59,340 bases of DNA from Methanolinea sp. (lineage in GTDB: Archaea; Halobacteriota; Methanomicrobia; Methanomicrobiales; Methanospirillaceae), in contig JADFCY010000011.1 of the NCBI GenBank assembly GCA_018263335.1, positions 1-59,340 of the forward strand, given 5' to 3'. Positions 10,737 to 40,696 of this stretch are shown in pieces. The notes beneath the pieces are model-generated. The model saw only the letters and a program-made list of their open reading frames with translations. It was not told the DNA's origin and did no database searches. How positions within the stretch are numbered: the first letter of the stretch is position 1; every line of letters starts with the position of its first letter. The translations under genes were made by a program, and so were the position numbers.

Positions 10737-10969
10737 GATCATCCGGTGGGGGCCGGACCATATCAATGTCGCGGGGGGGTGTCCCCGGAAAATTACGGGA
10801 TTCCCGGGTCACGCCACTCACGTTCAGAGAAAGACTTGCGGCAGCGATTCGTGGAAAGGTTCCGCTCTGCCCTCCACCGGCAGGTATTAGGGCACACGCA
10901 GCCAATTATTCCGAGTTTATTCTCACAATTGCGGCGGCCGGGCACCCCCGGCCACGCCCGCACACCCAG

Positions 10970-22470: not shown

Positions 22471-22991
22471 CGCCTCATCCCCCCCTTTCCCCGGCATCTC
22501 GCCGCACACGCCATTCCAGCCATCGTCCCTGCAAGGAGGAGGAGGAGTGAGGGCGCTGCCTTCGGTGTCCCGGCCGTGAGAGGGGCTGCCGAGGGGACCT
22601 GGGGACTCTCTGTGCCATCCGCGTGACCCGCCACCGTCCCTCCCTCGTCAAGGACGAAGTCCGTCCACGTCCCCCGGATCGCCCCCGTGGGGTCCTCTGG
22701 TGCACGCACGACGTAGGTGATCTCGGGTTCGCCGATCACCGCAAGGAAGAGCGTCGTCCCATCGACCCTGTACTGGCCGGCGGGAAGGGAGACCTCCCGC
22801 ACCTCTGTCCCGGGGGGGAGGACTTCGGTGATCCCTGCGACCCTCTCGCCTGCAATTGTCAGCACGACGCGGTACGTGGACTGTTCTGCAGGCTCGACCG
22901 ACCGTTCGACCACCCCGGCGAACGCTCCCTGTACCACGACGGCGAAGAGGAGCAGGAGGATGGTCCCTGCGATGAGGTGCCCTCTCATCAT
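22467..22991 (-). CDS. Small surface protein heading the metal-import/CobN operon
   Basis: A 174-residue protein with a signal peptide (HLIAGTILLLLFAVVVQGAFA), an extracellular beta-rich domain (STYRVVLTIAGERVAGITEVLPPGTEVREVSLPAGQYRVDGTTLFLAVIGEPEITYVVRAP), a Pro/Thr/Ala-rich linker, and a C-terminal membrane helix with a basic tail (LLLLLAGTMAGMACAARCRGKGG). This layout is that of a wall-tethered envelope protein. I do not recognise the domain by name. The 4-nt overlap with the binding-protein gene suggests it works with the importer, perhaps as an outer ligand-capturing or docking component. Confidence 0.7.
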   Translation of the reverse strand: MMRGHLIAGTILLLLFAVVVQGAFAGVVERSVEPAEQSTYRVVLTIAGERVAGITEVLPPGTEVREVSLPAGQYRVDGTTLFLAVIGEPEITYVVRAPEDPTGAIRGTWTDFVLDEGGTVAGHADGTESPQVPSAAPLTAGTPKAAPSLLLLLAGTMAGMACAARCRGKGGMRR

Positions 22992-23019
22992 ATGGATAGT
23001 CCTTTGGATGTGATACAAT

Positions 23020-23035
23020 AAATAATAATGGTTAT
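23020..23035 (-). promoter_or_regulatory. Promoter region of the importer/CobN operon
   Basis: On the minus strand the AT island (TTATTATTTATTG-like) lies about 30-45 nt before the ATG at 22991, a reasonable place for a TATA box. It faces a second AT-rich promoter serving the divergent ABC exporter. Confidence 0.4.
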
Positions 23036-23078
23036 AATCCCTCAGTATATGGATAAAAAAATAGCAGTTCATCATACG

Positions 23079-23095: not shown

Positions 23096-23241
23096 TACCA
23101 TGTGATAAATAAACTCCTCATTCCTGGATGGAGTCCCTTCTCCATTGGAGGAGACGATCCCTCTTCCTTTCTGTCGGAAGTGCTATCAGCACCGGCACAA
23201 GAGAGGTACTCTGGGAATATCCGGGGGACACGCACGACCAC

Positions 23242-24198
23242 ATGATCCCGATTCAGACATCCGGCCTGACGAAATACTACGGGTCACTCTGCGCAGTGGA
23301 CCACCTGGACCTCTCGATCGGAAACGAGATATTCGCCCTGCTCGGCCCGAACGGGTCCGGGAAGACCACGACGGTGCTGATGCTCACGACGCTGCTGTTG
23401 CCGACTGAAGGGTCCGCCACTGTCTGCGGCCACGATATCAGGGAAGAGCCACAAGAGGTGCGAAGGCTCATCAGCTACGTCCCCCAGGACATGGCAGTCG
23501 ACATCAAGCTCACGGGAAGGGAGAACGTCGCCCTCTTCGCGAAACTGTACGGGATTGCGCGGCGCGACGAGACCATCGACCGGGTGCTCGAGATGATGGA
23601 CCTTGCGGGAAGGGCCGACGACCTTGTCCGGACCTACTCGGGAGGGATGCGCAGGAGGCTCGAACTTGCGCAGGCACTCGTCCACGAGCCAAAGGTCCTC
23701 TTCCTGGACGAGCCCACCATCGGCCTCGACGTCGCGGCACGAAAGAAGATCTGGGAGCACATCCGGATGCTCAAGTCCCGGGGGATGACCATCTTTGTCA
23801 CCACCCACTACATGGACGAGGCAGACCATTCCTGCGACCGTGTCGCCATCCTCGACCACGGCCGGGTGGCGGCAGTCGACTCGCCCGCCCACCTGAAAGG
23901 GATGCTCGGAAAAGACCTCATCAGCGCGAGGGTGAGCGGGGGGTTTTCCGGCACTCTTCCTGCAGGGATCGAGCGCCTGGGTGAGAAGGAGAACGGCGAG
24001 TTCGTATTCTCATCCGACCATGCATCCGAGAAGGTGCCGGTCCTCTTCCGCTGGCTCGAGGAGCACGGCGCCGTCATCCACTCCCTCTCGGTGCGGGAGC
24101 CCACGCTCGACGACGTCTTCCTCGCCCTCGTCGGCGCAAAAGACGACGTGACGGGATTCGACGACCACAGGTTCAGGACGATGCTCCGGAGGAGATGA
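23242..24198 (+). CDS. ABC exporter, ATP-binding subunit (DrrA/NodI type)
   Basis: A 318-residue ATPase of the ABC-2 export class. Walker A GPNGSGKT is at residues 35-42, the signature YSGGMRRRLELAQAL, and Walker B VLFLDEPTIGLDVAARKKIWEHI, then the conserved TTHYMDEADHSCDRVAILDHG. The C-terminal 80 residues form the DrrA-type regulatory extension ending PTLDDVFLALVG. I use the ATG at 23242; an open upstream extension to 23128 is not convincing. It overlaps the permease gene by 4 nt. The substrate (drug, lipid or polysaccharide) is unknown. Confidence 0.92.
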   Translation: MIPIQTSGLTKYYGSLCAVDHLDLSIGNEIFALLGPNGSGKTTTVLMLTTLLLPTEGSATVCGHDIREEPQEVRRLISYVPQDMAVDIKLTGRENVALFAKLYGIARRDETIDRVLEMMDLAGRADDLVRTYSGGMRRRLELAQALVHEPKVLFLDEPTIGLDVAARKKIWEHIRMLKSRGMTIFVTTHYMDEADHSCDRVAILDHGRVAAVDSPAHLKGMLGKDLISARVSGGFSGTLPAGIERLGEKENGEFVFSSDHASEKVPVLFRWLEEHGAVIHSLSVREPTLDDVFLALVGAKDDVTGFDDHRFRTMLRRR

Positions 24199-24923
24199 TG
24201 AAGGACATCCTCCCCTACTTCGAGCGGGACATGCTCCGATGGGTGCGGGGGAAAATCTCGGTCATCTCGGCGCTTGTCATGCCTGCCGCCTGGCTCATCT
24301 TCGTCGGCCTTGCGCTCCCGACCACGTTCACCGAGAACTACATCGACTTCATCACGCCCGGGATCCTTGTCCTGACGATGCTTGGCGCCTCTCTCCAGGG
24401 AGGCTCCCTCCTGATCTTTGACAAGATCCTCGGGTTCCTGAACAAGTTCCTCGCGCTCCCCTCCTCGCGGGAGAGCATCCTCTACGGGAAGATCCTCTTC
24501 ATCACGACCCGGGGGCTGATCCAGGCGACCGTGATCCTCTTCCTCGCCCTCCTCCTCGGAGCAACGTTCCTCTCGCCCGGAAGCCTCGTCCTGACCTACG
24601 GCATCCTGGCCCTCTTCGGCGTGCTCCTCTCCGCGTTCTCGACGACGGTTGCGCTCTATCTCTCCGACCACGATGCCTATGCCGCCTTCAATGCCATGGT
24701 GAGCATGCCGCTCTTCTTCACGAGCAGCGCACTGATGCCGTATGCCGTCATGCCCGCATGGCTCGCACCCCTCGCATACTGGAACCCCGTGAGCTATGCG
24801 ATCGACGCGATACGGGCGCTCCAGGAGGGGGTCCTTGCCTGGCCACGGATTGGGGCGCTTGTCCTCCTCGCGGTGATCGTCGTGGGGATCAGCGTCCGGC
24901 AGTTCCGGAAGGTCACGCTCTGA
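24195..24923 (+). CDS. ABC exporter, ABC-2 type permease
   Basis: A 242-residue membrane protein with six helices typical of the DrrB/ABC-2 family. Features include the amphipathic start KDILPYFERDMLRWVRGKISV, the ENYIDFITPGILVLTMLGASLQGGS region, and the late PLFFTSSALMPYAVMPAWLAPLAYWNPVSYAIDAIRAL motif, which is diagnostic for this permease family. It pairs with the ATPase that overlaps it by 4 nt. AT-rich DNA with a T6 run at 25028-25033 follows about 100 nt later. Confidence 0.92.
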   Translation: MMKDILPYFERDMLRWVRGKISVISALVMPAAWLIFVGLALPTTFTENYIDFITPGILVLTMLGASLQGGSLLIFDKILGFLNKFLALPSSRESILYGKILFITTRGLIQATVILFLALLLGATFLSPGSLVLTYGILALFGVLLSAFSTTVALYLSDHDAYAAFNAMVSMPLFFTSSALMPYAVMPAWLAPLAYWNPVSYAIDAIRALQEGVLAWPRIGALVLLAVIVVGISVRQFRKVTL

Positions 24924-26607: not shown

Positions 26608-27083
26608 TATTCATCAGGGGAGTCGCCATTACCCAGGGTTTTTTTCGCAGAATACAATGGGTTACAATGCACATGCTGACCTGAAGCTCCTTTTTCCTGC
26701 ATAATTCAAAGTCAACGGGATTAATACGCAAATGAGGTAAGATCGCAGGAATACTGGCAGAATAGAATTACTGCCTCTCATCGGTTGCATAAATCTTGAG
26801 CGCACCGATTAAAAAAGAAGATCACACTCTCCTTATACATGGGAAAGAAATAGTTCCCGCCGGATGAAATGTACTGGGATATTCGTGTGGGAAAAATTCT
26901 TTCTGGATTATCCGTTCTCATCCCAAAATTTGCTTTCGCACTCACAAGATCACCCCACAAAATATTTGGCAATCTGCATCTTTACAGCAAATCCTTTGAG
27001 TAAACGGGAACATTCCTCTAATACGAAACCGGAAGGATTTGCACGCGCTGAAAACAAAATGTGGGGGGCTCTCTAAAAAAATC
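26608..27083. other. AT-rich intergenic region after the MntA-HepT pair
   Basis: This region of 476 nt separates the HepT remnant from the end of the large PEGA protein gene on the other strand. Short frames on both strands lack protein character. I see no RNA gene; an A7 run at 27075-27081 acts as the minus-strand terminator listed next. Confidence 0.5.
27075..27081 (-). terminator. T7 terminator of the surface-protein operon
   Basis: On the minus strand the stop codon TGA (27086-27084) is followed after two bases by seven T. This is a plausible oligo-T terminator for the five-gene surface/ABC operon. Confidence 0.45.
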
Positions 27084-30000
27084 TCACCGTTTGCTTGGAG
27101 GAAGGAGCGAGAGATTGACAGTCCTCCCGGGGAGGACGACTGCCTCAAAGTCCCGCTCCGCATCCTCCCAGCGCACCCTTCCACTGACCGTCCCAATCGC
27201 CAGGTAGTCGAATGTGGCAGGGGTAATCCTTCCGGTATCCCTGTTAAAGAATGAGATCTTCGCGCCAGGGGGATCGCTCTCTATCGTGAGGTTCCCTGAA
27301 TGGTACGGACTCATGGCGAGCGTGATGCGCATGTCGACTGGTTCATTCTGGTAGTCGACGAGAGTAACCACCTGCGAGGAGGGGTAGTAGCCGGGGAGGA
27401 GGAGGTCGACGCGGTGCTGCCCTGGCGAGAGGTTCCCTATGAGTGCAGGGGTCAGTTTCCCGGTATTGAACCCATCGACGAGGATCTGGGCTCCCTGTGG
27501 TGTCGAGCTCACCTCGATCCCCGCAAGGCCTTCGGCGGTATTCTCGACAAAGACCTCTGATCCATCCGCGATCCGTGCGATGATGGTCTTTGAATGCCAG
27601 GCTCCGTCAGAGAACACTGTCACGAAAGGCGAGATCCCCTCCACAGTCACGACGGAAGGGATCCTGAGGACGGGGGCCCTCCCATTGACGGTGAACTGGG
27701 CGCCGGGCCATCCGGTTGAGTTGATGAAAAGGCGGCGTGTCGTCGTTGCACCGCTCGAGAACTCGGCGGTCGCGATCTCGCCGGGTGTGACCCAGACCTG
27801 CCTGCTCTCGGGAGTGAAGGTGAATGACTCCATCTCGAGCTTGATGCTGTGCATCCCCCCTTTCAGCCAGTTTGCCACAAACGGCGTCTTTGCAGGCACC
27901 TTCCTCCCGTCGATGAAGATGTCTGCCCCACGCGGGTAGGAATCGATGAAGATTCCGCCGGTGACTGCCTTCTCCTGCGAGCGCTGCGGGGAGGACGGTG
28001 CCGCATCACCCTCTCCTGGAAGGGTGGCCCCTTCACTGGAACTCTCCTCGAGACCGGGGGGATCCACGGAATTCCCCTCTCCGTCCCCGAAAACCGGCCC
28101 GGGCTCAAGAAAGAGGGGGTCTCTCCCGTCCGCCCTTATACTCTCCTCTCCGATTGCGAGGTCCTCCCTGGTCACGGGTATTCCTGCCGATGCCGCGTCA
28201 GGAGAGGGAGACCGGTGGATCCCAAAGAGGTCAAATACCCTCGCAAAGAGCCATTCTACGATATTTCCCGGGAAACTGGTCTCTTTCGCTGGGGGAATGT
28301 GGTGCCCCGTGGGGCGAAGCGGTGTTTCCTCCGGTGCAGTCTGCGTCTCCTGCACCGTGCCTCCCGTGAGGGAGACTGCCGGCCGGGTGGCCCCCGGCGC
28401 ATGGGTGGCTCCAGGCACCGGTGCAACTGCATCCCCGGCAACAACGGGCACTCCCCGGGTCAGCACCAGGATGGCGTTCCGGTTCTCCATGTAGTCGCCT
28501 GCTCCCGCAACCGGGAGGCTTGCGATCTCAAGCCGGTTCCTGGACCGCTCGAGCCAGGGGAGGACATCGAGCGCAGCGACGCTGACACCGGATGACCCTC
28601 CGGTGAGCGGGTTGTAGTACTCGCCGTCGTTGAAAGTGGCAACGTGCTGGTCACCTCCCTCGCCGGACGCCGCAGTGCTGACCAGGAAGAGGGTCGCATC
28701 GCCTATTCCCTCCTTCTCCACGTTCCCGGCGAACTCTGCCCTGGTGCGGGCATCCTCAGCAGTCGTCCCAAAGCGCGGGTCTGCAAAGACGATGTCCGAT
28801 CCCTCGCAGATCCAGTACATGATCTCGGGGGCAGCAGGGTCTTTCTGCAGGACAATGAGCATGACGCCGTACGCGGCAAATTCGCGGCCACTCCCGCCGC
28901 TGTTCACGACTGTCACCTCGCCCCTGTCGCCCGGGGTTATCACCCCTTTGAGGTCGTAGGCGAAGGTCTGGACCGGGTAGTCATAGACCCCCTCGCCCTT
29001 CCTGTCGGTGTAGGTGGCATCCGCCTTCAGCAGTTTCCCGTTCCACGAGACCTCCGGTGAGGCGGGTACCCCTTCTCTTTTCATCGTGTCGTGGCTCCAC
29101 GTGGTGTAGAGGTACAGGCGCGAGAGGACGATCTCTCTTCCTCCCGGCACGGCATCCGGCAGTGCATATACATGCTTCCGGCCGGACGGGATCATCCCCG
29201 TGTAATCGCTTGCGACCGTCGAGAAGAACGTGCCGTTCAGCGTCCCCTGCCGATACAGCGCGAGGGCCGACCCGCGGTACCCGGAGAGCCCCGTCCCGCT
29301 GACCGTCGAGTCTCCACCTGACGATGACCCTCCGCGCCCCCCGGCCCCCAGGGCCTCATCGATCGAGACCGTCTGCCCGTCGATGACTTCCACCGTCTCC
29401 TTCCACTCCTGGTAGCCCGACAGCCTCATCGTCACCTCCCGGTACCCGGCAGGGACATCCGGGATCACGCAGGGGGTGAGTGCGGCCTGCTTCACCCCGT
29501 CGATCAGGACCTCGGCTCCGGGCGGGTCGGTGGCGACCGAGAGGGTCCCCTTGCCCTGCTGGAGGGTGAAGTGGACAGTCGAGGTCACCCCTGTCTGGAC
29601 AGTCACCTGCTGCGGGCCCGGGTCCCGGTACCCCTCCTTCTCCACCGTGACGATGTGGTACCCCTGCGGGACCTCCGAAAGCGTGGTGTTGGTCACCGCT
29701 TCCTGCTCCTCGCCGTCGAGGTAGATCGTCGCTCCCGGGGGTGTTGAGGTGACCTTCAGGCTGCCGGCGTCGCTGCCGGGGTACCGGACGGCAAGGGTTG
29801 CCAGCATGATCTTGAAGTACCTCCCCACATTGTCATAGGTGAGGTCCGAGTCCCTCCCCTTTCGGATGCTGTCGGTCACGTCATGCCGGTCGATGCCCGC
29901 ATATCCGCCCTGCGGCTTTCCGGCCGAGAGCCCGTCGCGGTTGAACTCGTACTCCGCGTTCTCGCTTGCGAGGTGGACCACCGTGAGGTCGGCACGCTCC

Positions 30001-30686
30001 CACTCGTCATCGAGCGAAGAGGTCGAAAACGAGGTCTCCCCCACGTAGGTCTCCCCGAGCATCTCCTCGGTCCGCTCGCTGTCCTCGTCGATGCCCTGGT
30101 TGACCCAGTAGACCACCCGGTCCCGGTCGCCGTCGTCGTATGCCACGACCAGGACGATGGCCTTGACCCGGCCGTCGAAGGTGCCGGTGTAGCCGGCAGG
30201 GCGGCTCGTCTTGACCCTTGCCAGGACGTTTTTCTCCTGGATGTGGCTTTTCACGTCGTACCACATCAGGTAGTCGCTCGTCACGCGGGTGGTATGGTCA
30301 TTGAGCCGCACCGGCCCGGTGCCTCCCTCGCCGGGGAACGTGTAGGGGACGTTGAGGAGCTCGGTGGCAAGGGTGGTGGCTCCCCTCCCCCCGTTGAAGG
30401 TGACCTCTGCCTGTGCCTGGTAGTTGTTCTGCATGTGGCCGCAATAGACGACGACGTAGAGGCGTGCCCACTGGACCGCGGTATAGGCGGGCAGCGAGAA
30501 CGAGGCGCTCGCGTCAGTCGACATCGGGAACCCGGCGTCGACGAAGAGCCCGCCCGAGACCTGGCCATCCCTGACGGTCTCGAGGGGGATGCCGCCGAGG
30601 TAGGGGTCGGCGCAGGCAGGCGCGATGAACGATGCGGCCAGGAGCAGCGCAAGGATGGAAAACAGCGTGGAGTGTTTTGTCTGCAT
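27084..30686 (-). CDS. Large secreted DUF3344/PEGA surface protein
   Basis: A 1200-residue exported protein. The signal peptide ends at PACA around residue 26. A DUF3344 domain spans about 27-300 (LGGIPLETVRDGQVSGGLFVDAG ... WARLYVVVYCGHMQNNYQ ... VAYDDGDRDRVVYWVNQG). Two PEGA repeats follow at about 308-445 (TSTPPGATIYLDGEEQ, ATDPPGAEVLIDGVKQ), then a second DUF3344-like unit. Beyond a Thr/Pro-rich linker lie more PEGA-type repeats (IDSYPRGADIFIDGRKV, SSTPQGAQILVDGFNTG, ESDPPGAKISFFNRDTG). There is no C-terminal anchor, so it is secreted or held non-covalently. It is the last gene of the operon, 3 nt after the ABC permease. Confidence 0.88.
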   Translation of the reverse strand: MQTKHSTLFSILALLLAASFIAPACADPYLGGIPLETVRDGQVSGGLFVDAGFPMSTDASASFSLPAYTAVQWARLYVVVYCGHMQNNYQAQAEVTFNGGRGATTLATELLNVPYTFPGEGGTGPVRLNDHTTRVTSDYLMWYDVKSHIQEKNVLARVKTSRPAGYTGTFDGRVKAIVLVVAYDDGDRDRVVYWVNQGIDEDSERTEEMLGETYVGETSFSTSSLDDEWERADLTVVHLASENAEYEFNRDGLSAGKPQGGYAGIDRHDVTDSIRKGRDSDLTYDNVGRYFKIMLATLAVRYPGSDAGSLKVTSTPPGATIYLDGEEQEAVTNTTLSEVPQGYHIVTVEKEGYRDPGPQQVTVQTGVTSTVHFTLQQGKGTLSVATDPPGAEVLIDGVKQAALTPCVIPDVPAGYREVTMRLSGYQEWKETVEVIDGQTVSIDEALGAGGRGGSSSGGDSTVSGTGLSGYRGSALALYRQGTLNGTFFSTVASDYTGMIPSGRKHVYALPDAVPGGREIVLSRLYLYTTWSHDTMKREGVPASPEVSWNGKLLKADATYTDRKGEGVYDYPVQTFAYDLKGVITPGDRGEVTVVNSGGSGREFAAYGVMLIVLQKDPAAPEIMYWICEGSDIVFADPRFGTTAEDARTRAEFAGNVEKEGIGDATLFLVSTAASGEGGDQHVATFNDGEYYNPLTGGSSGVSVAALDVLPWLERSRNRLEIASLPVAGAGDYMENRNAILVLTRGVPVVAGDAVAPVPGATHAPGATRPAVSLTGGTVQETQTAPEETPLRPTGHHIPPAKETSFPGNIVEWLFARVFDLFGIHRSPSPDAASAGIPVTREDLAIGEESIRADGRDPLFLEPGPVFGDGEGNSVDPPGLEESSSEGATLPGEGDAAPSSPQRSQEKAVTGGIFIDSYPRGADIFIDGRKVPAKTPFVANWLKGGMHSIKLEMESFTFTPESRQVWVTPGEIATAEFSSGATTTRRLFINSTGWPGAQFTVNGRAPVLRIPSVVTVEGISPFVTVFSDGAWHSKTIIARIADGSEVFVENTAEGLAGIEVSSTPQGAQILVDGFNTGKLTPALIGNLSPGQHRVDLLLPGYYPSSQVVTLVDYQNEPVDMRITLAMSPYHSGNLTIESDPPGAKISFFNRDTGRITPATFDYLAIGTVSGRVRWEDAERDFEAVVLPGRTVNLSLLPPSKR

Positions 30687-30689
30687 GAT

Positions 30690-31910
30690 CTACCTCCCTG
30701 ACCTGATCGCCTCGACGGGGTTCAGCCGCGATGCCTTCCAGGCAGGATAGAGCCCCGCGAGGAGCGAGAGGACGACGGCGAGCAGGAGGCCGGCGGCGAG
30801 CAGCGGCCAGGTCACGAGCGCGATCTCGGAATCGAGGAGCCCGGCAAATGCGTCCCCAAAGCGCGACGCAAGGAACGGCCCCCCAAGCACGTTGAGGACC
30901 GCGGCAAAGAGCACGCCGAGCAGGTCGCCGCCCACCCCGCCGATGACTCCGAGCACTGCGCACTCGGCGAGGATCATCTCCATCACGTCCCCTTCCGAGG
31001 CGCCGACCGCCATGGCAATCCCGATCTCGCGGGTCCGCTCGTACACCGAAGTGATCATGGTGCTCGCGATCATGAGGCCCCCGACGAGGAGCGAGAGGCC
31101 TGCGAAGATGCCGAGGAATATGACCACCATGTCCATCATGCGGTTCACCGCCTCGATCTGCTCGAACGAGCCCCGGGGGGAGAGCCCGATGCCCCGCACC
31201 CCCTCGGCAACCGAGAAGACCCGGTCCGGCCCCTCAGCCCTGATGAGGATACCGCTGTACCCCCCGTCGCCCTCGCCGAGCCGGACCGCGAGGTCAAGGT
31301 CCATCAGGAGCAACTGGTCGTACGCGTCTCCCCGCTCCTCCATGACCCCGACCGGGACGACCGTGGTCTCCTCGTCGACAGGCCTCCCCTGGGCATCGTA
31401 GGAGCGCCTGATGATGACAAGGGGGTCTCCGATGCGGACACCCTCGTAGCGCTGGAGCTTCTCGCCAAGGGCCGCCCCGAACACCACCTCGTTTGAGCCG
31501 GGCGAGAAGCCGGACCCCCTGAGATAGGCGGGGTGAAGCACCCCTTCGAGCCCATCAGCCGGGACTCCTATTACCTGGACGTACGTCTGGCCCCTGGTGG
31601 CAAACGTCCCCCTCACCACCGGCGCCGATGCCGCCACCCCAGGCAGGTTGGCCGCGGCTGCCGCCCGCGTGGGGGTGACGAGCTGGAGGACGTTTCCCTC
31701 CACTCCGGGCAGCGCCTCGATCAGCGTGAGGTCTGACTGGGTGCGGATGGCGTCCACGGCCTGGGTGCGGATGCCCTCCCCGAGCGCGACAGTCCCGACG
31801 AGCGCGGCGACCCCGATCGCGATGCCCGCAACGGTGAGGATGACGCGAAATTTCCTCCGGAAGAGCTGGCGGACGGCGAGCTGGAAGAACTCTGCCAGCC
31901 GGGAGTTCAT
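30690..31910 (-). CDS. MacB/FtsX-family ABC transporter permease
   Basis: A 406-residue protein with the four-helix MacB/LolE topology. An N-terminal helix (FRVILTVAGIAIGVAALVGTVALGEGI) is followed by a large extracellular MacB_PCD domain (about residues 45-260), then the FtsX domain (FAGLSLLVGGLMIASTMITSVYERTREIGIAMAVGASEGDVMEMILAE) and the C-terminal LAGLYPAWKASRLNPVEAIRSGR. Such permeases act as mechanotransmitters moving proteins or lipids outside the membrane rather than transporting through it. It overlaps the ATPase gene by 4 nt and sits between surface-protein genes. Confidence 0.92.
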   Translation of the reverse strand: MNSRLAEFFQLAVRQLFRRKFRVILTVAGIAIGVAALVGTVALGEGIRTQAVDAIRTQSDLTLIEALPGVEGNVLQLVTPTRAAAAANLPGVAASAPVVRGTFATRGQTYVQVIGVPADGLEGVLHPAYLRGSGFSPGSNEVVFGAALGEKLQRYEGVRIGDPLVIIRRSYDAQGRPVDEETTVVPVGVMEERGDAYDQLLLMDLDLAVRLGEGDGGYSGILIRAEGPDRVFSVAEGVRGIGLSPRGSFEQIEAVNRMMDMVVIFLGIFAGLSLLVGGLMIASTMITSVYERTREIGIAMAVGASEGDVMEMILAECAVLGVIGGVGGDLLGVLFAAVLNVLGGPFLASRFGDAFAGLLDSEIALVTWPLLAAGLLLAVVLSLLAGLYPAWKASRLNPVEAIRSGR

Positions 31911-32575
31911 GCGACCACCCTCCCGTCACGCATCTCGACCGTGCGGTCGGCGTAGGACGCAAGCTCCCGCTCGTGCGTCACGACAAGGAGCGTCACCCGC
32001 CGTTCCCGGTTCAGCCGCTGCAGGAGCGAGAAGATCCCCTCGCTCGTGGCGGAGTCGAGGTTTCCGGTCGGCTCGTCCGCGAGGACCAGGGGAGAGTCAG
32101 CCACGAGCGCACGGGCGATTGCCACCCGCTGCTGCTCGCCCCCGGAGAGCTGGCCAGGGTAGTGGGACGCCCGCCCGTCGAGGCCCACCATCGCGAGGAG
32201 GGCATTTGCCTTCTCCTGCCGCTCGGCCGGGGGCCGGTAGTTGAAGAGGAGGGGGTACTCGACGTTCTCCCTCGCGGTGAGCGAGGGGATGAGGTTGAAC
32301 TGCTGGAAGACGAACCCGACCATCTCCCTCCGGAACGAGATGAGGGCTCTCCGGTCGGAGAAGTCGAGCGGCGTACCGTTGACTGCGACCGATCCCCCGG
32401 TCGGGGAATCAAGGCCCCCGACGATGTTGAGGAGGGTGCTCTTCCCGCTCCCGCTCCTCCCGATGATGGAGACGAACTCCCCCCGCTCGATCCGGAGGTC
32501 GACTCCCTCGAGCGCCCGGACGCCGCCCGGATAGTGGCGGGAGAGCGCCCGTGCCTCGAGTATCGGGCTCGTCAT
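31907..32575 (-). CDS. MacB/LolD-type ABC transporter ATPase
   Basis: A 222-residue ATPase. Walker A is GRSGSGKS at residues 39-46, the signature is LSGGEQQRVAIARALVADSPLVLADEPTGNLDS, and the switch region VTHERELASYADRTVEMRDGRVV ends the protein. These are the marks of the LolD/MacB class. It drives the adjacent permease and overlaps neighbours on both sides by 4 nt. The context says its work is linked to the DUF3344 surface proteins encoded in the same operon. Confidence 0.94.
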   Translation of the reverse strand: MTSPILEARALSRHYPGGVRALEGVDLRIERGEFVSIIGRSGSGKSTLLNIVGGLDSPTGGSVAVNGTPLDFSDRRALISFRREMVGFVFQQFNLIPSLTARENVEYPLLFNYRPPAERQEKANALLAMVGLDGRASHYPGQLSGGEQQRVAIARALVADSPLVLADEPTGNLDSATSEGIFSLLQRLNRERRVTLLVVTHERELASYADRTVEMRDGRVVA

Positions 32576-33555
32576 GCCTCCTCCCGGTACTCGACTCTCA
32601 ACACCGCGTTGCAGAGCTGGAAGTAGTCGCCGTTGTCCCTGACCTCGATGAAGTTGTCGGAGTAGCGGAGGAACGGCCGGATCTCGCGGGAGGCGATCCC
32701 GATCTGGCGGCTCTCGTCCGCGGTGAAGACATCGGTCCAGGTCTTACCCTGGTAATGGGGGAAGAGGACCCGGAGGACCGGCTCAACGAGCGGCGGGAGG
32801 CTTCCGCTTCCGGGCGTGTTCAGGAGGAGCTGGTTCATCTCCGGGATCTCCTCGCGGGCAAACCCCGCGGATGGTGCGACGAGGAGGAGGCGTGCCGACT
32901 TCACCCGGGGCAGGTCGACCCTGCCAGGAAACTCCACCCGGGTAGTGGCAAGCTCTTTCGGGATGCCGTAACTGCGGTAGAGGAGGTCTGCCCCCTCGGC
33001 GACCCAGATGGAGGATTCGGGGGCACCGCCGTCTTCGTACACGTTGAGAAGGGACGTCCCCTGGACGATGAACGTGCTCCCGTCATCCGCGGTGTTGTTG
33101 ACAATGACAGTGACCCGGTCGCCGGAATGGCCGGGGAGGAGGTAGCTGTCCATCCCCGAGAAGTAGTCGTTCTTGCTCGCAAACCCCTTGCTGTCAGCGT
33201 ACCGTGCAGCCCGCTCGAGGAGGGGGCCGTCCGGGCCGCCGAGCCTTGCCTCCATTGTCGGGTAGGACGCGGCCTGGTCGATCCTGCTCCACGTCCAGTA
33301 TACGTATATCCGCTCGAACCGGGCCTCTGCACCAGGAGGAAGTTCTTTCTGGAAGGAGGCCACGTACCCGGAACCGGGGGTGAGGGTCCCGCTGTACCCG
33401 CCGTCCCCGAGGGTGAAGTAAAACGATCCCGAAAGAGTGTCTGAAAAGACCCCCTGGAGGGGGCGGTCGCCTGCGTAACTTGCCGCGACCGGTGCGGCAC
33501 AGACGATGAGGATGGCCGCGACCAGGGGGCCTGTACGTTCGCTACGGGAAGTCAT
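32572..33555 (-). CDS. Secreted DUF3344-like surface protein
   Basis: A 327-residue exported protein with a signal peptide (GPLVAAILIVCAAPVAASYA). The rest is one DUF3344-like unit: FSDTLSGSFYFTLGDGGYSGTLTPG, ARFERIYVYWTWSRIDQAASYPTMEARLGG, SGDRVTVIVNNTADDGSTFIVQGTSLLNVYE, then SSIWVAEGADLLYRSYGIPKELATTRVEFPG. There is no anchor. The ATG at 33555 overlaps the end of the upstream gene by 14 nt and its stop overlaps the ATPase start by 4 nt. That makes it a core member of the exporter operon and a candidate substrate or accessory protein of the MacB-like machine. Confidence 0.8.
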   Translation of the reverse strand: MTSRSERTGPLVAAILIVCAAPVAASYAGDRPLQGVFSDTLSGSFYFTLGDGGYSGTLTPGSGYVASFQKELPPGAEARFERIYVYWTWSRIDQAASYPTMEARLGGPDGPLLERAARYADSKGFASKNDYFSGMDSYLLPGHSGDRVTVIVNNTADDGSTFIVQGTSLLNVYEDGGAPESSIWVAEGADLLYRSYGIPKELATTRVEFPGRVDLPRVKSARLLLVAPSAGFAREEIPEMNQLLLNTPGSGSLPPLVEPVLRVLFPHYQGKTWTDVFTADESRQIGIASREIRPFLRYSDNFIEVRDNGDYFQLCNAVLRVEYREEA

Positions 33556-35323
33556 ACCTCGCGTCTGCCCGGTTGTTCCCTTTCTCCCGCTCAATGATCG
33601 CGCCTTTCTCGTCCGCGATCACCGAGACCGCGTGGGGACCCGGCGTCGTGTGGAGGGTGACCTGCTCGCGGACGACGCCTCCTGCGGAGAGGCCCGGCAC
33701 CGAGAGCCGGGTGACACGCTCCCCGTCAAGCAGGACCGTCACCTCGAATGCCGGGGCGTCGCTCCCGCCAAGGTTCCTGACCTCGACAGGGAGGGAATAG
33801 GCGATGACCTGGGCGCTGCCTGCCGCATGCGCGACGGGGACCGCGAAGGCCGCGAGGACGATTCCCGCGGCAAGGAGGAGGGCGAAGTTCCGCGACCGCC
33901 CCGTGTACAGCCACCATCCCAGCACCGGCGCCCCCGCGAGCGCGGCGACCGGGAACGGGGTGGTCGCCTGCGGGGGTGCAGAGGCATCCTGCCGGGCAGG
34001 CTGGCCGATCGAGACCGCGAGGTCGACCGGGGTTTCGACCTTCACGGTCTTCTCGGCCCGGCCGGAAGATGCTCCTGCGGCCGCCGCGTCCACCGCGATT
34101 GCATGGGTCCCCTCCACCGCGGTCCACGGGAGCGTCACTTCCGCCCAGCCGCTCGCCGGCAGCGTGACCTCCCGGCTCCCTGCCGGGACCCCGTCCACCG
34201 AGAGAGTGACCGAGACCGCCCCTGCCGGTGCAGCCCCCGTGCTCCTCACCACCGCGGTGACCTCCGCCTGTTCGCCCGCGTACGCGTTCCTGACCTCGAG
34301 CGAGTCGACGCCAAGCGACGCGGACGATGCAGGTCCCGCCCTGGTCACCGCGAAGATCGCAAGGCAGGGGTGGATATAGTCCTCGCCCTCGGGCGTTGCG
34401 CCGGTGGTGGTGATGTTCCCGTCACCGTCAAGGTCGCGCCCCCGCTCAAAGACGAGCACATTGTCCCGGCGGAGAACTCCTGTGACGTCGAACGACTCCA
34501 TGTCCACGTACCGGCTCTCGAACCCCGCTCCGACGGTCGCATCAAACGACTGCTCGTTCCCGATGTCCTTTGCCCCCGGGAGGTACGTCCCCATTTTCGG
34601 GGCGACCCCGAGGTCAGCACCGTTGAAGAGGACGTAGTCGGGCTGGCCCCGGTTTGTTGCGACCAGGAGGACCGAGAGTTCCGCCTTCTTCACCCCGTCG
34701 GTCGGCATCCCGCCGATCGAAACTTCCACCCTGTCCCTCCGGGTCGGGTTCGTCCCGGACCACCCTTCGCCATGGAGGTTCTCGTTTCCTTCAAGGACGA
34801 CATATCGCGTCGCGTCCCCGCCGTCCTTCTCCACCGCCGCGACCACCATCACGGCATAAACCCGGCCGTCGATCCTGCTCCCGGCCTCCCCCTTGCTCGT
34901 CGAGGCGCTGACCGTGTTCTCGCCGGGGCCGAGCAGGCCGGTTGCGTCCTGTGCAATCCAGTACACCCCGTGGCCGCTGCAGTAGACCCCTTCGTTCCTG
35001 TCGTCTTGGCCGTAGAGAGTGATCCGGTCCGTCGGCTTCCCGTTCACCGTGAACTGTGCCCAACCCGAATACTTCTCGGTCCCGCCCCACACCCCGCAGT
35101 AGATCCTCGCCCACTTCGGGGCACGGTCAAGCGTGATCGTGCATTCCATCGGGGGGTTTGTCAGCCCGTAATTCCCGGCAGTGACCACCTCGCCGGCCAC
35201 TTCCCCCTGCGCAGCCGGGCGAAGCGCAAGGCCCTCGAAGTCGTAGAGCGCCGTGCAGGGGATGGCGAGCACGAGGAGACTGAGAAGAATGCAGAGGCGT
35301 AGTGGAGGCCGGGCGTTGTGCAT
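33542..35323 (-). CDS. DUF3344/CARDB membrane surface protein (apparent fusion)
   Basis: A 593-residue protein. The signal peptide (LCILLSLLVLAIPCTA) is followed by a DUF3344 domain (KWARIYCGVWGGTEKYSGWAQFTVNGKP ... FDVTGVLRRDNVLVFERGRDLDGDGN). A CARDB-like domain (LGVDSLEVRNAYAGEQAEVTAVVRSTG) comes next. Then come a Pro-rich linker, a membrane helix with basic tail (FPVAALAGAPVLGWWLYTGRSR) and at once a second hydrophobic stretch shaped like a signal peptide (FALLLAAGIVLAAFAVPVAHAAG). A second CARDB domain ends the protein. It reads like two exported proteins joined. It is the first gene of the operon; the ATG at 35323 is taken because it directly precedes the signal peptide. Confidence 0.82.
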   Translation of the reverse strand: MHNARPPLRLCILLSLLVLAIPCTALYDFEGLALRPAAQGEVAGEVVTAGNYGLTNPPMECTITLDRAPKWARIYCGVWGGTEKYSGWAQFTVNGKPTDRITLYGQDDRNEGVYCSGHGVYWIAQDATGLLGPGENTVSASTSKGEAGSRIDGRVYAVMVVAAVEKDGGDATRYVVLEGNENLHGEGWSGTNPTRRDRVEVSIGGMPTDGVKKAELSVLLVATNRGQPDYVLFNGADLGVAPKMGTYLPGAKDIGNEQSFDATVGAGFESRYVDMESFDVTGVLRRDNVLVFERGRDLDGDGNITTTGATPEGEDYIHPCLAIFAVTRAGPASSASLGVDSLEVRNAYAGEQAEVTAVVRSTGAAPAGAVSVTLSVDGVPAGSREVTLPASGWAEVTLPWTAVEGTHAIAVDAAAAGASSGRAEKTVKVETPVDLAVSIGQPARQDASAPPQATTPFPVAALAGAPVLGWWLYTGRSRNFALLLAAGIVLAAFAVPVAHAAGSAQVIAYSLPVEVRNLGGSDAPAFEVTVLLDGERVTRLSVPGLSAGGVVREQVTLHTTPGPHAVSVIADEKGAIIEREKGNNRADARYDFP

Positions 35324-35741
35324 ATAGAGATACTTACTGTGAAATTGTATTAACGTTGTGATTTCAATGCTATTTTTTTTATTCACACTGAAAATTTACA
35401 GTAAATATATGAAAATAATAAAAATATTGCTTACTAAAAATGAAATTTGAAGAGTTCTATTTTTTTATGATATTTGGTATATTGGAATTGAAATTCTAGG
35501 AATTGAGATTGAAATTCTAAAAAAGAAAATTGCAATTTTTTCAGTGAATGAAGAGATCCGCAAGAAATAGTATGATTTTTTGCTTTTTTAAATTTCAAGA
35601 GTAAAGAATTGAATTTATAATTTTATTAATATTTTGTACAATTAGTGTTACAAAATTAAAAATAAATCATAATATTTATTTAAGAAAGAGTTGCAGGTAG
35701 AGGTATTCCTGCGGAATGCCACCCGCGGATGGAGTACTGAT
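35324..35741. promoter_or_regulatory. AT-rich divergent promoter region between two surface-protein operons
   Basis: This stretch of about 420 nt is far more AT-rich than its surroundings and separates the minus-strand exporter operon from the plus-strand PKD/WxL-like operon. The word ATTGAAATTCTA occurs twice, at 35487-35498 and 35508-35519, exactly 21 nt (two helical turns) apart, and the related ATTTCAAT appears inverted near 35363. TATA-like runs lie about 30 nt before the likely start of each operon. TTTTGTACAATTAGTGTTACAAAA near 35634-35657 is a near-palindrome related to the arm at 4939-4950. No gene is seen. Confidence 0.5.
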
Positions 35742-37571
35742 ATGAAGACTCTGACTATTCTGGGCATTGTTGCCCTGATGATGCTCCTGGTACTTCCGGG
35801 AGCGGTAATGGCTGCGGACGTGACGGTGTCTGGGAGCATTCTGCCAGATGCGCCAGTTGCTGCGTTTAGCGCATCGCCGATTTTTGGCGCGCAAACGTTA
35901 ACCGTATTCTTTACCGATTCATCAACACCTGCTGATCACATTGATGAATGGACATGGGAGTACCGGGTGACTGGAACAGACACCTGGATCGCCTTTGATG
36001 AATCCACCGAAAAACACCCCACACAGGATTTTGATGCCGGTTACTATGACATCCGGCTCACGGTCACGAACGCTGCTGGCAGCAATACTGAGACCAAGCT
36101 GAAATACATCCGCGTCTCGCCCGGACCGCTTCCACTGGAGACGGTAAAGAGCGGGACGGTGTCCGGCGACCTGTATTTCGGTGCGTTCCAGCCAACCCCA
36201 TTCAATAACCAGCCCCAGAACACAGGTGTAACACAGGAAGCAGAATTCCCATTCGCTCCCTCGGGATACACCTCGATTGAATGGGCACGGTTCTACACGA
36301 TGGTGTATGTCGCAGGACAGGATGAGCGCGAGTGTGTAGTGACTGTATCATTTGACAAAGATGGCGACGGCAACTACGAGACCGTCCTTGAAGACGCAGT
36401 GACGCTCAATACGGCAACAGGCGGGAGTAACGGAAACGTCTGGTGGCAGGGTGACCACATCAACCGGGTCTACTCTGACTACGTGATGTTCTACGATGTA
36501 AAGGACTTAATCTCCAGTGGAACGGTCAAGGCAAAAGTGCAGACTGTGCCCGGTGCATCTAACATGGACGGCCGGATCAAGTACCTCGCGCTGGTTGTCG
36601 CATACAACGACGGCGACAGCGATGAGGTGAAGTACTGGGTCAACGATGGGCACCACTGGGTTGCATCGATGGCAACAGGACAGACCGGGTATGCCACCCA
36701 AACTTTAAGTGCTGGCTTCACCGATGCTGAACTCAAGGTACTGCACACATCAAGTACCGATGCGAAGTATACCTTCAACGGCGCTTCGTTAATTGGTGCA
36801 AACCCGGTCGCCCCGGTTAATTATTTCGGTTTGAACTCTTGGAATATCAAAGATGACATTACCATTGGCAGTCCAAGCACGCTGTCGTACTACAAGGATA
36901 CCACGTATTCCTACAAGACAACAATCGCCCCGTTAAAGGCCATCTACACCGCCCCTACCGCTGATTTCGAAGCGGACAAGACAAATGTGGTCATTGGTGA
37001 GACTGTCACTTTCACCGACGCATCGACTGGATTGGTGACCAGCTGGGCGTGGGACTTTGATAACGACGGAACGGCGGACAGCAACGAACAGAATCCAAGC
37101 TGGACCTACAACACTGCCGGTAAAAAGACCGTGAAACTCACCGTCAGCGGCCCGCTAGGCGACAACTCCCTGACGAAGACTGATTACATCACCGTCGGCG
37201 ATGCAAGTATCGAAGTCACCGTGAGCCAGCCAACCATCAACTTCGGCACCATGGCGGCAGGTCAGACCAAGACCGGCAGCACAACGGTTTCCGTCGATGT
37301 CACGTACGGCACGGACTGGTATGTGACCGCAACGGCCAACAACGGCGGGTATATGGTGTCCGGTGGGACTCCGCTTACCAACCTGTTCCAGCTCTCGAAG
37401 ACCGATGGGAACGGCTATCAGAATATGGATGTTGCCTTCAGCAACTTCCTGACCGGAGACGCAGGCGTTGATGGCAGCGGCCCGGCATACGTCAGGCAAT
37501 TAATAGATGCCCTTGACGGACCCGGCTCGTACAGCATCACGCTGACCTTCACTGGCGGATTTGAGATCTGA
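35742..37571 (+). CDS. Secreted PKD-DUF3344-PKD protein with WxL-like C-terminal domain
   Basis: A 609-residue exported protein. The signal peptide (TILGIVALMMLLVLPGAVMA) precedes a PKD-type domain (PVAAFSASPIFGAQTLTVFFTDSS). A DUF3344 domain follows (LPLETVKSGTVSGDLYFGAF ... WARFYTMVYVAGQDE ... VVAYNDGDSDEVKYWVNDGHHW), then a second PKD (PTADFEADKTNVVIGETVTFTDASTGLVTSWAWDFDNDGT). The last 120 residues (IEVTVSQPTINFGTMAAG ... DWYVTATANNGGYMVSGGTPLTNLFQL ... GPGSYSITLTFTGGFEI) form a beta domain reminiscent of bacterial WxL domains. There is no anchor. The ATG at 35742 follows a GGAG site. It is probably in one operon with the next gene 90 nt downstream. Confidence 0.85.
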   Translation: MKTLTILGIVALMMLLVLPGAVMAADVTVSGSILPDAPVAAFSASPIFGAQTLTVFFTDSSTPADHIDEWTWEYRVTGTDTWIAFDESTEKHPTQDFDAGYYDIRLTVTNAAGSNTETKLKYIRVSPGPLPLETVKSGTVSGDLYFGAFQPTPFNNQPQNTGVTQEAEFPFAPSGYTSIEWARFYTMVYVAGQDERECVVTVSFDKDGDGNYETVLEDAVTLNTATGGSNGNVWWQGDHINRVYSDYVMFYDVKDLISSGTVKAKVQTVPGASNMDGRIKYLALVVAYNDGDSDEVKYWVNDGHHWVASMATGQTGYATQTLSAGFTDAELKVLHTSSTDAKYTFNGASLIGANPVAPVNYFGLNSWNIKDDITIGSPSTLSYYKDTTYSYKTTIAPLKAIYTAPTADFEADKTNVVIGETVTFTDASTGLVTSWAWDFDNDGTADSNEQNPSWTYNTAGKKTVKLTVSGPLGDNSLTKTDYITVGDASIEVTVSQPTINFGTMAAGQTKTGSTTVSVDVTYGTDWYVTATANNGGYMVSGGTPLTNLFQLSKTDGNGYQNMDVAFSNFLTGDAGVDGSGPAYVRQLIDALDGPGSYSITLTFTGGFEI

Positions 37572-37661
37572 ACAAATGGATGAGATGAATTTCCACCACA
37601 TCTTTTTCCAGCAATCCCGGAAAACCGCAACAGTATACTATCGAACGGAGCTTTGCTACCT

Positions 37662-38621
37662 ATGAACCAGAATACCCTTGCCCGTATCAGTTTCCTTATG
37701 CTCACACTTCTCTTCGCCGCAATCCTGCTCCACGCGCCTGCCTTCGCTCTTAAAGTCGATGGGGCACGAATCGCATTCGATGTGGAACCGGGAAAAACCT
37801 ACACATCCCCCATCGGGATCTCCATCAAACCCGAGGAATCCGGCGGGACGTTTGCCATCGATGTGATGGGATTCGGGCAGTCACCAGCCGACGGAACCGC
37901 CATCTCCCTTGAGGCAGAGGTGGATAAGAGTCCCTATAGTGCACGGCCGTTCATCACTATCGACGGGCCAACTGTTACCCTTGAGTCGGGTGGCCGGGCC
38001 GATGTCACGGCAACAATCACTGTCCCGGCAGACGCGAAGGATGGTGGCCGATACGCAATAATCCTTGTACATCCGGCTGCTTCAGCTTCTGGTGCGCCGG
38101 CGGCATTCGCCACGGCAGTGGCGATCCCTGTGATCCTCACTGTGAAAGGGGGGTCCATCAAAGAAACCGGTGAAATCCTGGCACTGGAGCCGTCTGTTGT
38201 CGGATCGGAAACACCATTCGACGTGGTCATGACCTTCAGGAATTCCGGGAACTACCACTACTCCGGTGCGAAAAACAGTATCACCATCACCGAAACAAGC
38301 GGCAAGGTAGTAGCGACCGGGGTAACAGCCCCCTTCAGCCGTGCAATTGTTCCCGGGAATTCGGTGGAGCTTTCCTGTACGATTGAAAATGGTCTTCCGC
38401 AAGGAACGTATCAGATGATATCCCGGGTGGAGAAGCAGGATGGGAAGCTCCTTGCCGAGAAGACAGTGATGCTTCAGGTCGGGAACCCATCCACAGCCCA
38501 GGTAACCCCAGTTGCTCCCAGCAAGGGCTTCCTACCTGGATTCGGGGCAACCCTGGCCATCATAGGAATTGCCTGTGCCTTTTTCGGAGCGCTCCGGAAG
38601 AGGAAGGGAGGAGAAGGATGA
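37662..38621 (+). CDS. DUF916-like surface protein with PGF-CTERM-type anchor
   Basis: A 319-residue exported protein. The signal peptide (ISFLMLTLLFAAILLHAPAFA) is followed by two immunoglobulin-like beta domains. The first (KVDGARIAFDVEPGKTYTSPIGISIKPEESGGTFAIDVMGFG ... GGRADVTATITVPADAKDGGRYAIILV) resembles the N-terminal domain of WxL-interacting proteins (DUF916). The second (EPSVVGSETPFDVVMTFRNSGNYHYSGAKNSITITE) is like their second domain. The C-terminus GFLPGFGATLAIIGIACAFFGALRKRKGG has the Pro-Gly-Phe, helix and basic tail of PGF-CTERM proteins processed by archaeosortase. The ATG at 37662 follows GGAG. It sits between the two WxL-like proteins, as a binding partner would. Confidence 0.75.
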   Translation: MNQNTLARISFLMLTLLFAAILLHAPAFALKVDGARIAFDVEPGKTYTSPIGISIKPEESGGTFAIDVMGFGQSPADGTAISLEAEVDKSPYSARPFITIDGPTVTLESGGRADVTATITVPADAKDGGRYAIILVHPAASASGAPAAFATAVAIPVILTVKGGSIKETGEILALEPSVVGSETPFDVVMTFRNSGNYHYSGAKNSITITETSGKVVATGVTAPFSRAIVPGNSVELSCTIENGLPQGTYQMISRVEKQDGKLLAEKTVMLQVGNPSTAQVTPVAPSKGFLPGFGATLAIIGIACAFFGALRKRKGGEG

Positions 38622-38667
38622 TGGGATGATGAAGAAGGCGTACCGAAACCGGAATCACCATCCTCCC

Positions 38668-38678
38668 TTCTTTTTTTC
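38668..38678 (+). terminator. T-rich tract after the PGF-CTERM gene
   Basis: A pyrimidine tract ending in seven T lies about 50 nt after the stop at 38621 and could terminate or attenuate the transcript before the next gene. Confidence 0.3.
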
Positions 38679-38782
38679 CCGGAGGTGGCAGGAGAACCTG
38701 CCTGCTGCCGCCGGCACGATGAGTATGCGCTCTTTTCGGGAAGAATACCTGTGCTGTCACGAAAAATCACGAGGATAAACCT

Positions 38783-40696
38783 ATGAAACGATTGATGAAA
38801 AACCGAAAATGGAAAATAGTAATCTCAATTCTCTTTCTTCTGGTTTTATCAGGGATTAGTGCTGCATTGCCCGATCTCACGGTTACTACAATTTCCGTGA
38901 ATCCTAGTACTAATTATCTGTTCGCTCATGAACCAAACACCATCCGGGCTACAATCAGTAATAATGGTGATCAACCTGCAATTAATTTCAACATTGCACT
39001 TGAGGTGGGGTCATATACAGAAACCAAGAGGCGAACCACTAATCTCAATGCAGGTTCTTCAACCACCATTACTTTTAACAGCTATTCCCCATCGGTAACC
39101 GGACCTGTCACCATTCGGGTGACAGTTGATTCTTCTGGCGAAATAGAAGAATCAGATGAAGAAAACAATGTCCTTGAGAGCATTCAAACCGTCTACTACA
39201 ATGGGTATAAGGGTAAGCGCTGGACGGATGGAAGTGACATCAATACGACGGCCGGACCTTATGAGGGATGCATCAACACCACTTACTCCCCCGGAAACAG
39301 TGTTTACAGCGGTGCCGGTTGGATGGCGAAGACTTGGAGCTGGACATCCTCTGATCTCCTGATCCCTGCTGAGGCCACCATTGTTGACGCCCGCCTCTAC
39401 CAGGGCTACACCTGGGGCGATAACCCTCTCTGGACCATGACCTTCAACACGCAGACCGTAACGCCAATCGCGACCTACACCGACCGGAAGGGCTGGGGGG
39501 GGTATGATGTCCCGCAGGGGCTCGTCGTCTATAACGTTATCGATGAGTTCGATCCGGCTGGCAACAGCATGACCATTACCCCGGAACCGGGGAACAATGT
39601 CGCAATCTACGGCGCTTACCTCGTCGTGGTATATGAACATGCAAGCGAAAAGCAGCGAAAGATCTGGATCAATGATGAGATGGATATTCTTCAAGCCAAC
39701 ACAAATTGGTATATCTCCAGTGAGGAAGCAACTGCCTATGCCAACTTTAAAGGTGTGAGCACGGACAACCTCGCGAGCGCGAAGGCCATTGCCATCCTGC
39801 AAAGTGCCGACGAGACTGGGAAAAGCAAGTTTTTCTTCAACGCTCAGGAATATACTGGCTTCTGGCTGGACTATAACAGCACGCCGCAGATCGGGTTCTC
39901 GGTCTACGATGTGACCTCTGCGCTCTTAAGCGGTGACAACGTCGCACGGCTCCAGAGCTATGACTCAGGTTCCGGAAACGGGGACAACATGTACGCCACG
40001 AATGTAATACTCATTGTTGAGAAAGAGGATGTAATTCCACCCCCTGTCACTGATTTCTCTGCAGATGACACGACACCTGATATCGGGCAAACAGTGATTT
40101 TCACCGATCTATCCACAAACACCCCGAACAGCTGGGTGTGGACCATAGATGGAACAGCAGGGACAGACTATATGTACGTCGATTCGACATCTTCAACATC
40201 ACAGAACCCGCATGTCCGTTTCCTGAAAGCCGGGAACTATAACGTGACGCTGGTTGCCACCAACGATGGTGGGAGCGATGACGAGTTCAAGGAAAACTAC
40301 ATTATTGTGACCGCTGCACCCGTGCCCACCATTGAGATAAGCTTGGGCAACTCCGGATTGTATCTCGATAACATGGTACCCGGTCAGGATGCAACGGCAT
40401 CGACCACGGTCAACGTAGTCGCAAGTAACGGCAATTCCTGGTCGGTTTCTGCTTCAGACGGAAAGACCCCGAACAAGGGTTACATGGTCAGCGGGAATAC
40501 CCCACTGATAAACCCAATCCAGTTGGGAAAGGATGGATCCGGCTACCAGACACTCTATTCGGGACCTGTAACCTTCTGGTCAGACACTTCGATGGGCACC
40601 TTCTCAGCCACGGCAAACATGAAGCAGCCGGTCTCTTCGAGCGATCTGGTTGGCGACTACGAGATTACCATCACCTTCACGGGGTCGATCGCATGA
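38783..40696 (+). CDS. Secreted CARDB-DUF3344-PKD protein with WxL-like C-terminal domain
   Basis: A 637-residue exported protein. The signal peptide is IVISILFLLVLSGISAA. The CARDB domain (LPDLTVTTISVNPSTNYLFAHEPNTIRATISNNG ... EESDEENN) covers residues 28-130. DUF3344 starts at about 138 (YNGYKGKRWTDGSDINTTAGPYEG) and runs to about 415, including KIWINDEMDIL and YTGFWLDYNSTPQIGFSVYDVT. A PKD-like domain covers about 421-510. The last 120 residues (TIEISLGNSGLYLDNMVPGQDA ... SWSVSASDGKTPNKGYMVSGNTPLINPIQL ... GDYEITITFTGSIA) match the WxL-like end of the protein at 35742. Its 3' end overlaps the next gene by 4 nt. Codon use is more AT-rich than in the minus-strand operon. Confidence 0.87.
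   Translation: MKRLMKNRKWKIVISILFLLVLSGISAALPDLTVTTISVNPSTNYLFAHEPNTIRATISNNGDQPAINFNIALEVGSYTETKRRTTNLNAGSSTTITFNSYSPSVTGPVTIRVTVDSSGEIEESDEENNVLESIQTVYYNGYKGKRWTDGSDINTTAGPYEGCINTTYSPGNSVYSGAGWMAKTWSWTSSDLLIPAEATIVDARLYQGYTWGDNPLWTMTFNTQTVTPIATYTDRKGWGGYDVPQGLVVYNVIDEFDPAGNSMTITPEPGNNVAIYGAYLVVVYEHASEKQRKIWINDEMDILQANTNWYISSEEATAYANFKGVSTDNLASAKAIAILQSADETGKSKFFFNAQEYTGFWLDYNSTPQIGFSVYDVTSALLSGDNVARLQSYDSGSGNGDNMYATNVILIVEKEDVIPPPVTDFSADDTTPDIGQTVIFTDLSTNTPNSWVWTIDGTAGTDYMYVDSTSSTSQNPHVRFLKAGNYNVTLVATNDGGSDDEFKENYIIVTAAPVPTIEISLGNSGLYLDNMVPGQDATASTTVNVVASNGNSWSVSASDGKTPNKGYMVSGNTPLINPIQLGKDGSGYQTLYSGPVTFWSDTSMGTFSATANMKQPVSSSDLVGDYEITITFTGSIA

Follow-up and report, generated by a model that had tools for sequence, protein, structure and literature searches.

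The window analysed here is a stretch of 59,340 nucleotides from Methanolinea sp. (assembly GCA_018263335.1, contig JADFCY010000011.1, positions 1 to 59,340), and at 27084..35323 it carries a cassette of five minus-strand genes, three of them encoding proteins with DUF3344 domains (PF11824) and two encoding the ATPase and permease of an ATP-binding cassette (ABC) pair. We propose, with moderate confidence, that this cassette is the envelope part of a locus that acquires and metallates a corrin-type or other cobalt or nickel chelate. Its link to cobalt-corrin metabolism is well supported, and the nearness of CobN-type chelatases and FecCD-type importer permeases to it is non-random. Three things we infer from the company these genes keep: binding of a ligand by the DUF3344 proteins, the nature of that ligand as a corrinoid or a cobalt or nickel chelate, and the object moved by the ABC pair. 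The genes, referred to below as C593, S327, ATPase, permease and L1200, are in order:

33542..35323 (-), C593, a surface protein of 593 residues arranged as DUF3344, CARDB, hydrophobic hairpin and CARDB (Pfam)
32572..33555 (-), S327, a secreted protein of 327 residues with a single DUF3344 domain, predicted to be a double jelly-roll (Pfam and model)
31907..32575 (-), the ABC ATPase, LolD/MacB-like with intact motifs (ABC_tran, Pfam)
30690..31910 (-), the permease, a type VII ABC protein with MacB_PCD and FtsX domains (Pfam)
27084..30686 (-), L1200, 1200 residues with two DUF3344 and four PEGA domains and a hydrophobic segment at the N-terminus only (Pfam)

Re-examination of the cassette at the nucleotide level reproduced exactly the arrangement given by a first-pass annotation of the sequence, with ATG starts at 35323, 33555, 32575, 31910 and 30686 (the C593 reading frame opens at 35386) and junctions, in gene order, of 14-, 4- and 4-nucleotide overlaps followed by a 3-nucleotide gap. 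The identities it had assigned, DUF3344/CARDB, DUF3344, ATPase, permease and DUF3344/PEGA, were borne out by Pfam domains scoring far above cut-off in all five proteins; DUF3344 itself was above cut-off in three of the five, and nine of the ten DUF3344 matches in the 2.03 Mb genome fall inside the window. The ATPase possesses the Walker A (GRSGSGKS), LSGG signature (LSGGE), Walker B (LVLADEP) and H-loop (VTH) motifs. The DUF3344 proteins had also been described as lacking anchors, which holds for S327 and L1200, in which a hydrophobic segment is found at the N-terminus only, but not for C593, where a central hydrophobic stretch (residues 477-504) lies between the two CARDB domains, is aligned in orthologues and is probably part of a membrane hairpin.

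The cassette was then followed across genomes. A survey of the GTDB family covered 108 genomes, with DUF3344 present in 33, and identified permease orthologues of at least 46% identity in 17 genomes and a partial one in another, the next match being at 30%; an S327 orthologue (at least 40% identity) occurred in the same genomes, bar those cut by contig ends. A scan of a genome collection extended the orthologues to Methanoregulaceae, Methanomicrobiaceae (Methanoculleus, Methanofollis, Methanogenium), Methanocalculus and a metagenome-assembled genome labelled Methanocella. When 44 genomes of the order and phylum that bear DUF3344 were searched with a profile, permease orthologues were found in 27, and permeases of the same clade scored 380-600 bits while other MacB-type permeases reached at most 140 bits, leaving a wide gap between them. 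The resulting set comprised 59 loci in Halobacteriota, with permease orthologues of approximately 37-94% identity, and the C593-S327-ATPase-permease run was intact at 46 of these, with a relative of L1200 next in line at 34. Since the gene order recurs at so many orthologous loci, the cassette is not a chance arrangement.

Departures from this order were due to contig ends at L071, L081, L085, L110 and L158, and L120 is a copy of the cassette with broken reading frames. At the Methanosarcina-type loci L147 and L149-L153 the permease gene stands apart from that of the ATPase, yet still beside other DUF3344 genes. Indeed, the permease adjoins DUF3344 genes at every locus that could be judged except L145, where a lone ATPase-permease pair (9104-11247) lies among housekeeping genes with no DUF3344 gene nearby, the sole such case seen. 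A pair without DUF3344 is thus not the rule among relatives, and this, together with the score gap to other permeases, supports the earlier claim that the ABC pair is dedicated to the DUF3344 proteins.

Two genomes carry two DUF3344-ABC cassettes each, G146 (L172, 2577-16486) and G341 (L161, L162); those of G146 are in tandem, and a single ATPase gene was found between the gene sets of both permeases. Separately, a DUF2117 protein is encoded next to the permease in five Methanosarcina-type loci (e.g. L149, 15840-17015).

In the window the cassette is flanked on one side by a BtuFCD-type importer and a CobN protein and on the other by a chelatase motor subunit:

15690..19412 (-), CobN/BchH-type chelatase large subunit with the HxGTHG motif, the sole CobN of the genome
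19416..20198 (-), BtuD/FecE-like ATPase, in an open frame that reaches 21359 and has the ABC domain in its last 260 codons
20186..21265 (-), FecCD/BtuC-like permease
21262..22509 (-), Peripla_BP_2 substrate-binding protein (BtuF/FecB-like)
22467..23075 (-), small protein with a hydrophobic segment at its N- and C-terminus
47639..49690 (-), ChlI/ChlD-like chelatase motor subunit (AAA and VWA)

The Peripla_BP_2, FecCD and matching ATPase genes form one run, which makes this a BtuFCD/FecBCD-type importer, for which BtuC and corrinoid-ATPase models rank first, yet below the equivalog cut-off. The small protein, which has no Pfam match, precedes the binding-protein gene at many cassette loci. Large subunit and ChlI/ChlD-type motor subunit together make a class I (CobN/ChlH) chelatase. 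The window CobN scored 576 bits with the CobN profile, 469 with ChlH and 351 with HmuS, and it accordingly resembles CobN and ChlH more than an HmuS heme dechelatase. An Rfam scan of the window matched only a tRNA and no riboswitch. Between the cassette and a DrrAB-type gene pair (described below), the region 25950-26620 partly resembles, by eye, a broken nucleotidyltransferase/HEPN-type gene pair.

In several genera the cassette again has genes for BtuFCD-CobN and/or ChlID near it, whether upstream or downstream of it and pointing either way, and an importer, chelatase or cobalamin gene lies within 11 kb at 26 of the 35 loci that have at least 6 kb on both sides. Among closed or near-closed genomes, CobN was found no further than 30 kb from the permease in 9 of 14 (0.55 expected; p 2.5e-10) and FecCD in 9 of 16 (1.5 expected; p 2.7e-6), p-values that are overstated because related genomes, which are not independent, were treated as such. 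In Methanoregula a Peripla_BP_2 gene sits inside the cassette, between the permease and L1200, and at the Methanoregula locus L079 genes for CbiM, an ABC ATPase and CbiQ come after it. Methanosarcina-type genomes and f30 have the cassette genes interspersed with those of an energy-coupling factor (ECF) importer comprising a CbiQ-like T protein, a fused A1A2 double ATPase and an S-like protein that carries an extracellular domain; in genus g15 the same ECF genes stand with DUF3344 genes and no ABC pair. Cobalamin-synthesis genes are co-directional into the cassette at the locus L148 of family f10 (cbiM, cbiL, cbiF, cbiG, a cbiH-cbiC fusion and cbiD) and at L162 (cbiH, cbiD, CobN and cbiA), while cbiA occurs at L168 and L169 and cobS beside the cassette at L171 and L097. 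The linkage to cbi and cobS genes is found in Methanomicrobiales. An assignment of the cbiA-like genes to cfbB of F430 synthesis was set aside, as NCBIfam favours CobB/CbiA and CfbB falls under cut-off, a result that is not decisive. The permease tree resolved three supported groups matching three partner sets; the surface module was thus retained through at least one replacement of its partner importer.

The ABC pair falls among the type VII systems of the MacB/LolCDE/FtsEX superfamily. The MacB_PCD extracytoplasmic domain follows the first helix of the permease and the FtsX helices are C-terminal, and a model of the permease (pLDDT 86) matched the folds of MacB, LolC/E and YtrF, in agreement with its sequence profiles, and that of HrtB more weakly. 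The pair thus resembles MacAB, LolCDE, FtsEX, YbbAP and YtrEF in joining a permease with MacB_PCD and FtsX domains to a separate LolD/MacB-like ATPase. It is, however, archaeal, and its constant partners are the three DUF3344 proteins. Unlike MacAB and LolCDE, it stays below the equivalog cut-offs for MacB (permease 76 bits against 966), lolCE (86.9 against 362) and LolD (231 against 308), and its cassette neighbours, which are DUF3344 proteins, include no MacA adaptor and no TolC; on these grounds it does not class as MacAB. The known members of the type VII class act by shifting extracytoplasmic partners or by extracting lipophilic molecules, and none is an importer (PMC5985334, PMC12646458).

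The repeated siting of the module by genes for B12-type import and synthesis suggests that it helps to catch or handle such molecules at the surface. In the mechanism that we envisage, surface-exposed DUF3344 proteins would bind the ligand or pass it on, and the MacB-type pair, rather than importing it, would use ATP in the cytoplasm to drive movements of the DUF3344 proteins outside the cell, be it their loading, release or opening, much as FtsEX and LolCDE work on partners beyond the cytoplasm. The ligand would then enter through the neighbouring importer, of BtuFCD type in Methanomicrobiales and ECF type in Methanosarcina-type genomes, and CobN with ChlI/ChlD would process it by metal insertion or exchange. 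Nickel is an alternative to cobalt as the metal: in Methanothermobacter, CobN1 and NikR1 increase only under nickel limitation (PMC12350162), and on Methanoperedens plasmids DUF3344 genes lie by NikR, CbiMNQO and ECF genes (PMC9674854). The latter region shares with ours the siting of DUF3344 genes beside cobalt/nickel ECF transporters, but no MacB-type pair is described there and its authors call the DUF3344 proteins likely cell-surface only (PMC9674854).

By analogy and not by membership, the closest functional counterparts would be the cobamide loci of Bacteroides, where surface proteins with a jelly-roll fold, whose genes adjoin btu genes, bind B12 (PMC13398666, PMC8941943, PMC10404256). 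Those loci (BtuB-BtuG, BtuH, BtuJ/DUF4465) likewise place signal-bearing surface proteins, some of them jelly-rolls, beside btu importer genes; they differ in being bacterial, outer-membrane and TonB-driven, B12 binding is putative for DUF3344, and no sequence similarity of DUF3344 to their proteins was found. The hmu heme operon of Bacteroidota (HmuY, HmuR, CobN-like HmuS and HmuTUV; PMC12583661) similarly brings together at a single locus a CobN-type protein, an envelope machine that is energised and a surface protein that binds the ligand, the last being putative in our case. In contrast to hmu, the window CobN is nearer CobN and ChlH than HmuS, has, unlike HmuS, a partner of ChlI/ChlD type close by, and is accompanied by no TonB parts.

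What is known of the DUF3344 fold says little of a ligand. An AlphaFold2 model of S327 (340-residue form; mean pLDDT 76) consists of two jelly-rolls side by side, and a fold search with it gave generic matches (GH86 C-terminal sandwich, CBM35, PNGase F and BcsB; Z at most 12 with the N-terminal half and about 9 with the C-terminal half) and no functional hint; the S327 profile found nothing significant among PDB sequences. For a relation of DUF3344 to DUF4465/BtuH there was no Pfam or PDB sequence match and no specific structural match among the matches listed, from which BtuJ and BtuH structures were absent altogether, an absence that proves nothing. S327, by prediction, and DUF4465/BtuJ and BtuH are all jelly-rolls.

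Several points weigh against assigning the cassette to chelate acquisition, in addition to the overstated p-values. Nine of the 35 well-flanked loci have no such partner within 11 kb, although two of them, L160 and L161, have CobN within approximately 26 kb, and no CobN is nearby in the Methanosarcina genomes G416, G457 and G459. The window CobN is below the NCBIfam equivalog cut-offs. The ECF S-like protein is only weakly like PF09819, and PDB and NCBIfam searches with it gave no relation that names a substrate. Furthermore, the structural matches of DUF3344 are generic carbohydrate-module-like folds, and no sequence relative of known function was found for it.

In the first-pass annotation itself the ABC pair was proposed to serve specifically in releasing DUF3344 proteins, assembling them or displaying them at the surface; on this view they would be structural surface proteins or adhesins. 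The tight co-translation with two secreted DUF3344 proteins in a conserved order is in keeping with this, as is a survey of fibrillar adhesins that found a DUF3344 cluster and left its function ambiguous (PMC9210967), and many more DUF3344-PKD-CARDB surface proteins are encoded beside the cassette, here in a divergent operon upstream of it (35691-46950, plus strand) with five DUF3344 domains in three proteins:

35691..37571 (+), DUF3344 and PKD protein
37653..38621 (+), membrane protein with a C-terminal helix and a weak PGF-CTERM match
38783..40696 (+), CARDB, DUF3344 and PKD protein
40693..41874 (+), PKD repeats
42310..46950 (+), three DUF3344, five PKD and two CARDB domains

However, the N-terminal hydrophobic, signal-like segments of the DUF3344 proteins favour the general secretory route, and display leaves unexplained why the module is accompanied time and again by importers, by CobN/ChlID and by genes of cobalamin synthesis, company that points to ligand acquisition instead. 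DUF3344 genes also occur without the pair, in G254 (L164, 1-19901, beside BtuFCD-CobN-ChlID and with no MacB-type pair) and in genus g15 (L086, L087), and thus the pair is not required for the export of DUF3344 proteins as a class. We therefore regard a display machine as unlikely.

Within the divergent operon, the 322-residue protein at 37653-38621 is weakly like WxL-interacting proteins (WxLIP E 0.13; orthologue 0.011), a match below cut-off for which a WxL-system link of the plus-strand proteins was rejected. The DUF3344-PKD proteins near it (35691-40696) end in a similar beta-rich domain of about 110 residues, and the products of this region are possibly a surface protein and membrane-anchor pair.

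A further explanation, which we find harder still to credit, makes the pair an exporter akin to MacAB or the heme extruder HrtBA, expelling a metallophore, corrin precursor or toxic tetrapyrrole; DUF3344 proteins would serve it as adaptors or acceptors, and BtuFCD or ECF would return the loaded form. The permease does belong to the export-type MacB/LolCE/YtrF superfamily with HrtB among its structural matches, and an exporter of DrrAB type is likewise conserved beside several cassettes, here as:

23128..24198 and 24195..24923 (+), DrrA/DrrB-like ABC-2 pair

In opposition to this, the HrtB match is far weaker than those to MacB, LolCE and YtrF, and the window holds no MacA-like adaptor and no metallophore-synthesis genes. 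Finally, it is very improbable that the neighbourhood is only a shared genomic island or regulon around a module with an unrelated surface role such as glycan binding, as the CBM-like jelly-roll matches of S327 and the loci L072, L078, L156 and L157, with no metal or tetrapyrrole partner nearby, might suggest, because partner genes that differ from one another but share a single metabolic theme turn up, variously oriented, in three separate clades, a pattern for which shared ancestry of one island is insufficient.

Both corrinoids and nickel tetrapyrroles have a central place in methanogenesis and in anaerobic methane oxidation, while, to our knowledge, little is known of their uptake by archaea across the S-layer. 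The locus described here offers one testable setting, in which a conserved trio of surface proteins is combined with a type VII ABC pair, a chelatase and an importer that can be exchanged, and in some genomes cbi genes stand in line with them. The cassette is built from known families, and its novelty is the functional link that it gives to DUF3344 and to the CobN proteins of archaea. More tentatively, as a possibility that we would not yet expect to hold, class II methanogens and ANME-type archaea may possess an ATP-driven counterpart of TonB-dependent cobamide surface uptake, in which DUF3344 proteins would catch corrinoids or nickel/cobalt tetrapyrroles at the S-layer and the MacB-type pair would power their hand-over to an exchangeable BtuFCD or ECF importer. 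If so, DUF3344 would be the first archaeal family of surface corrinoid-binding proteins.

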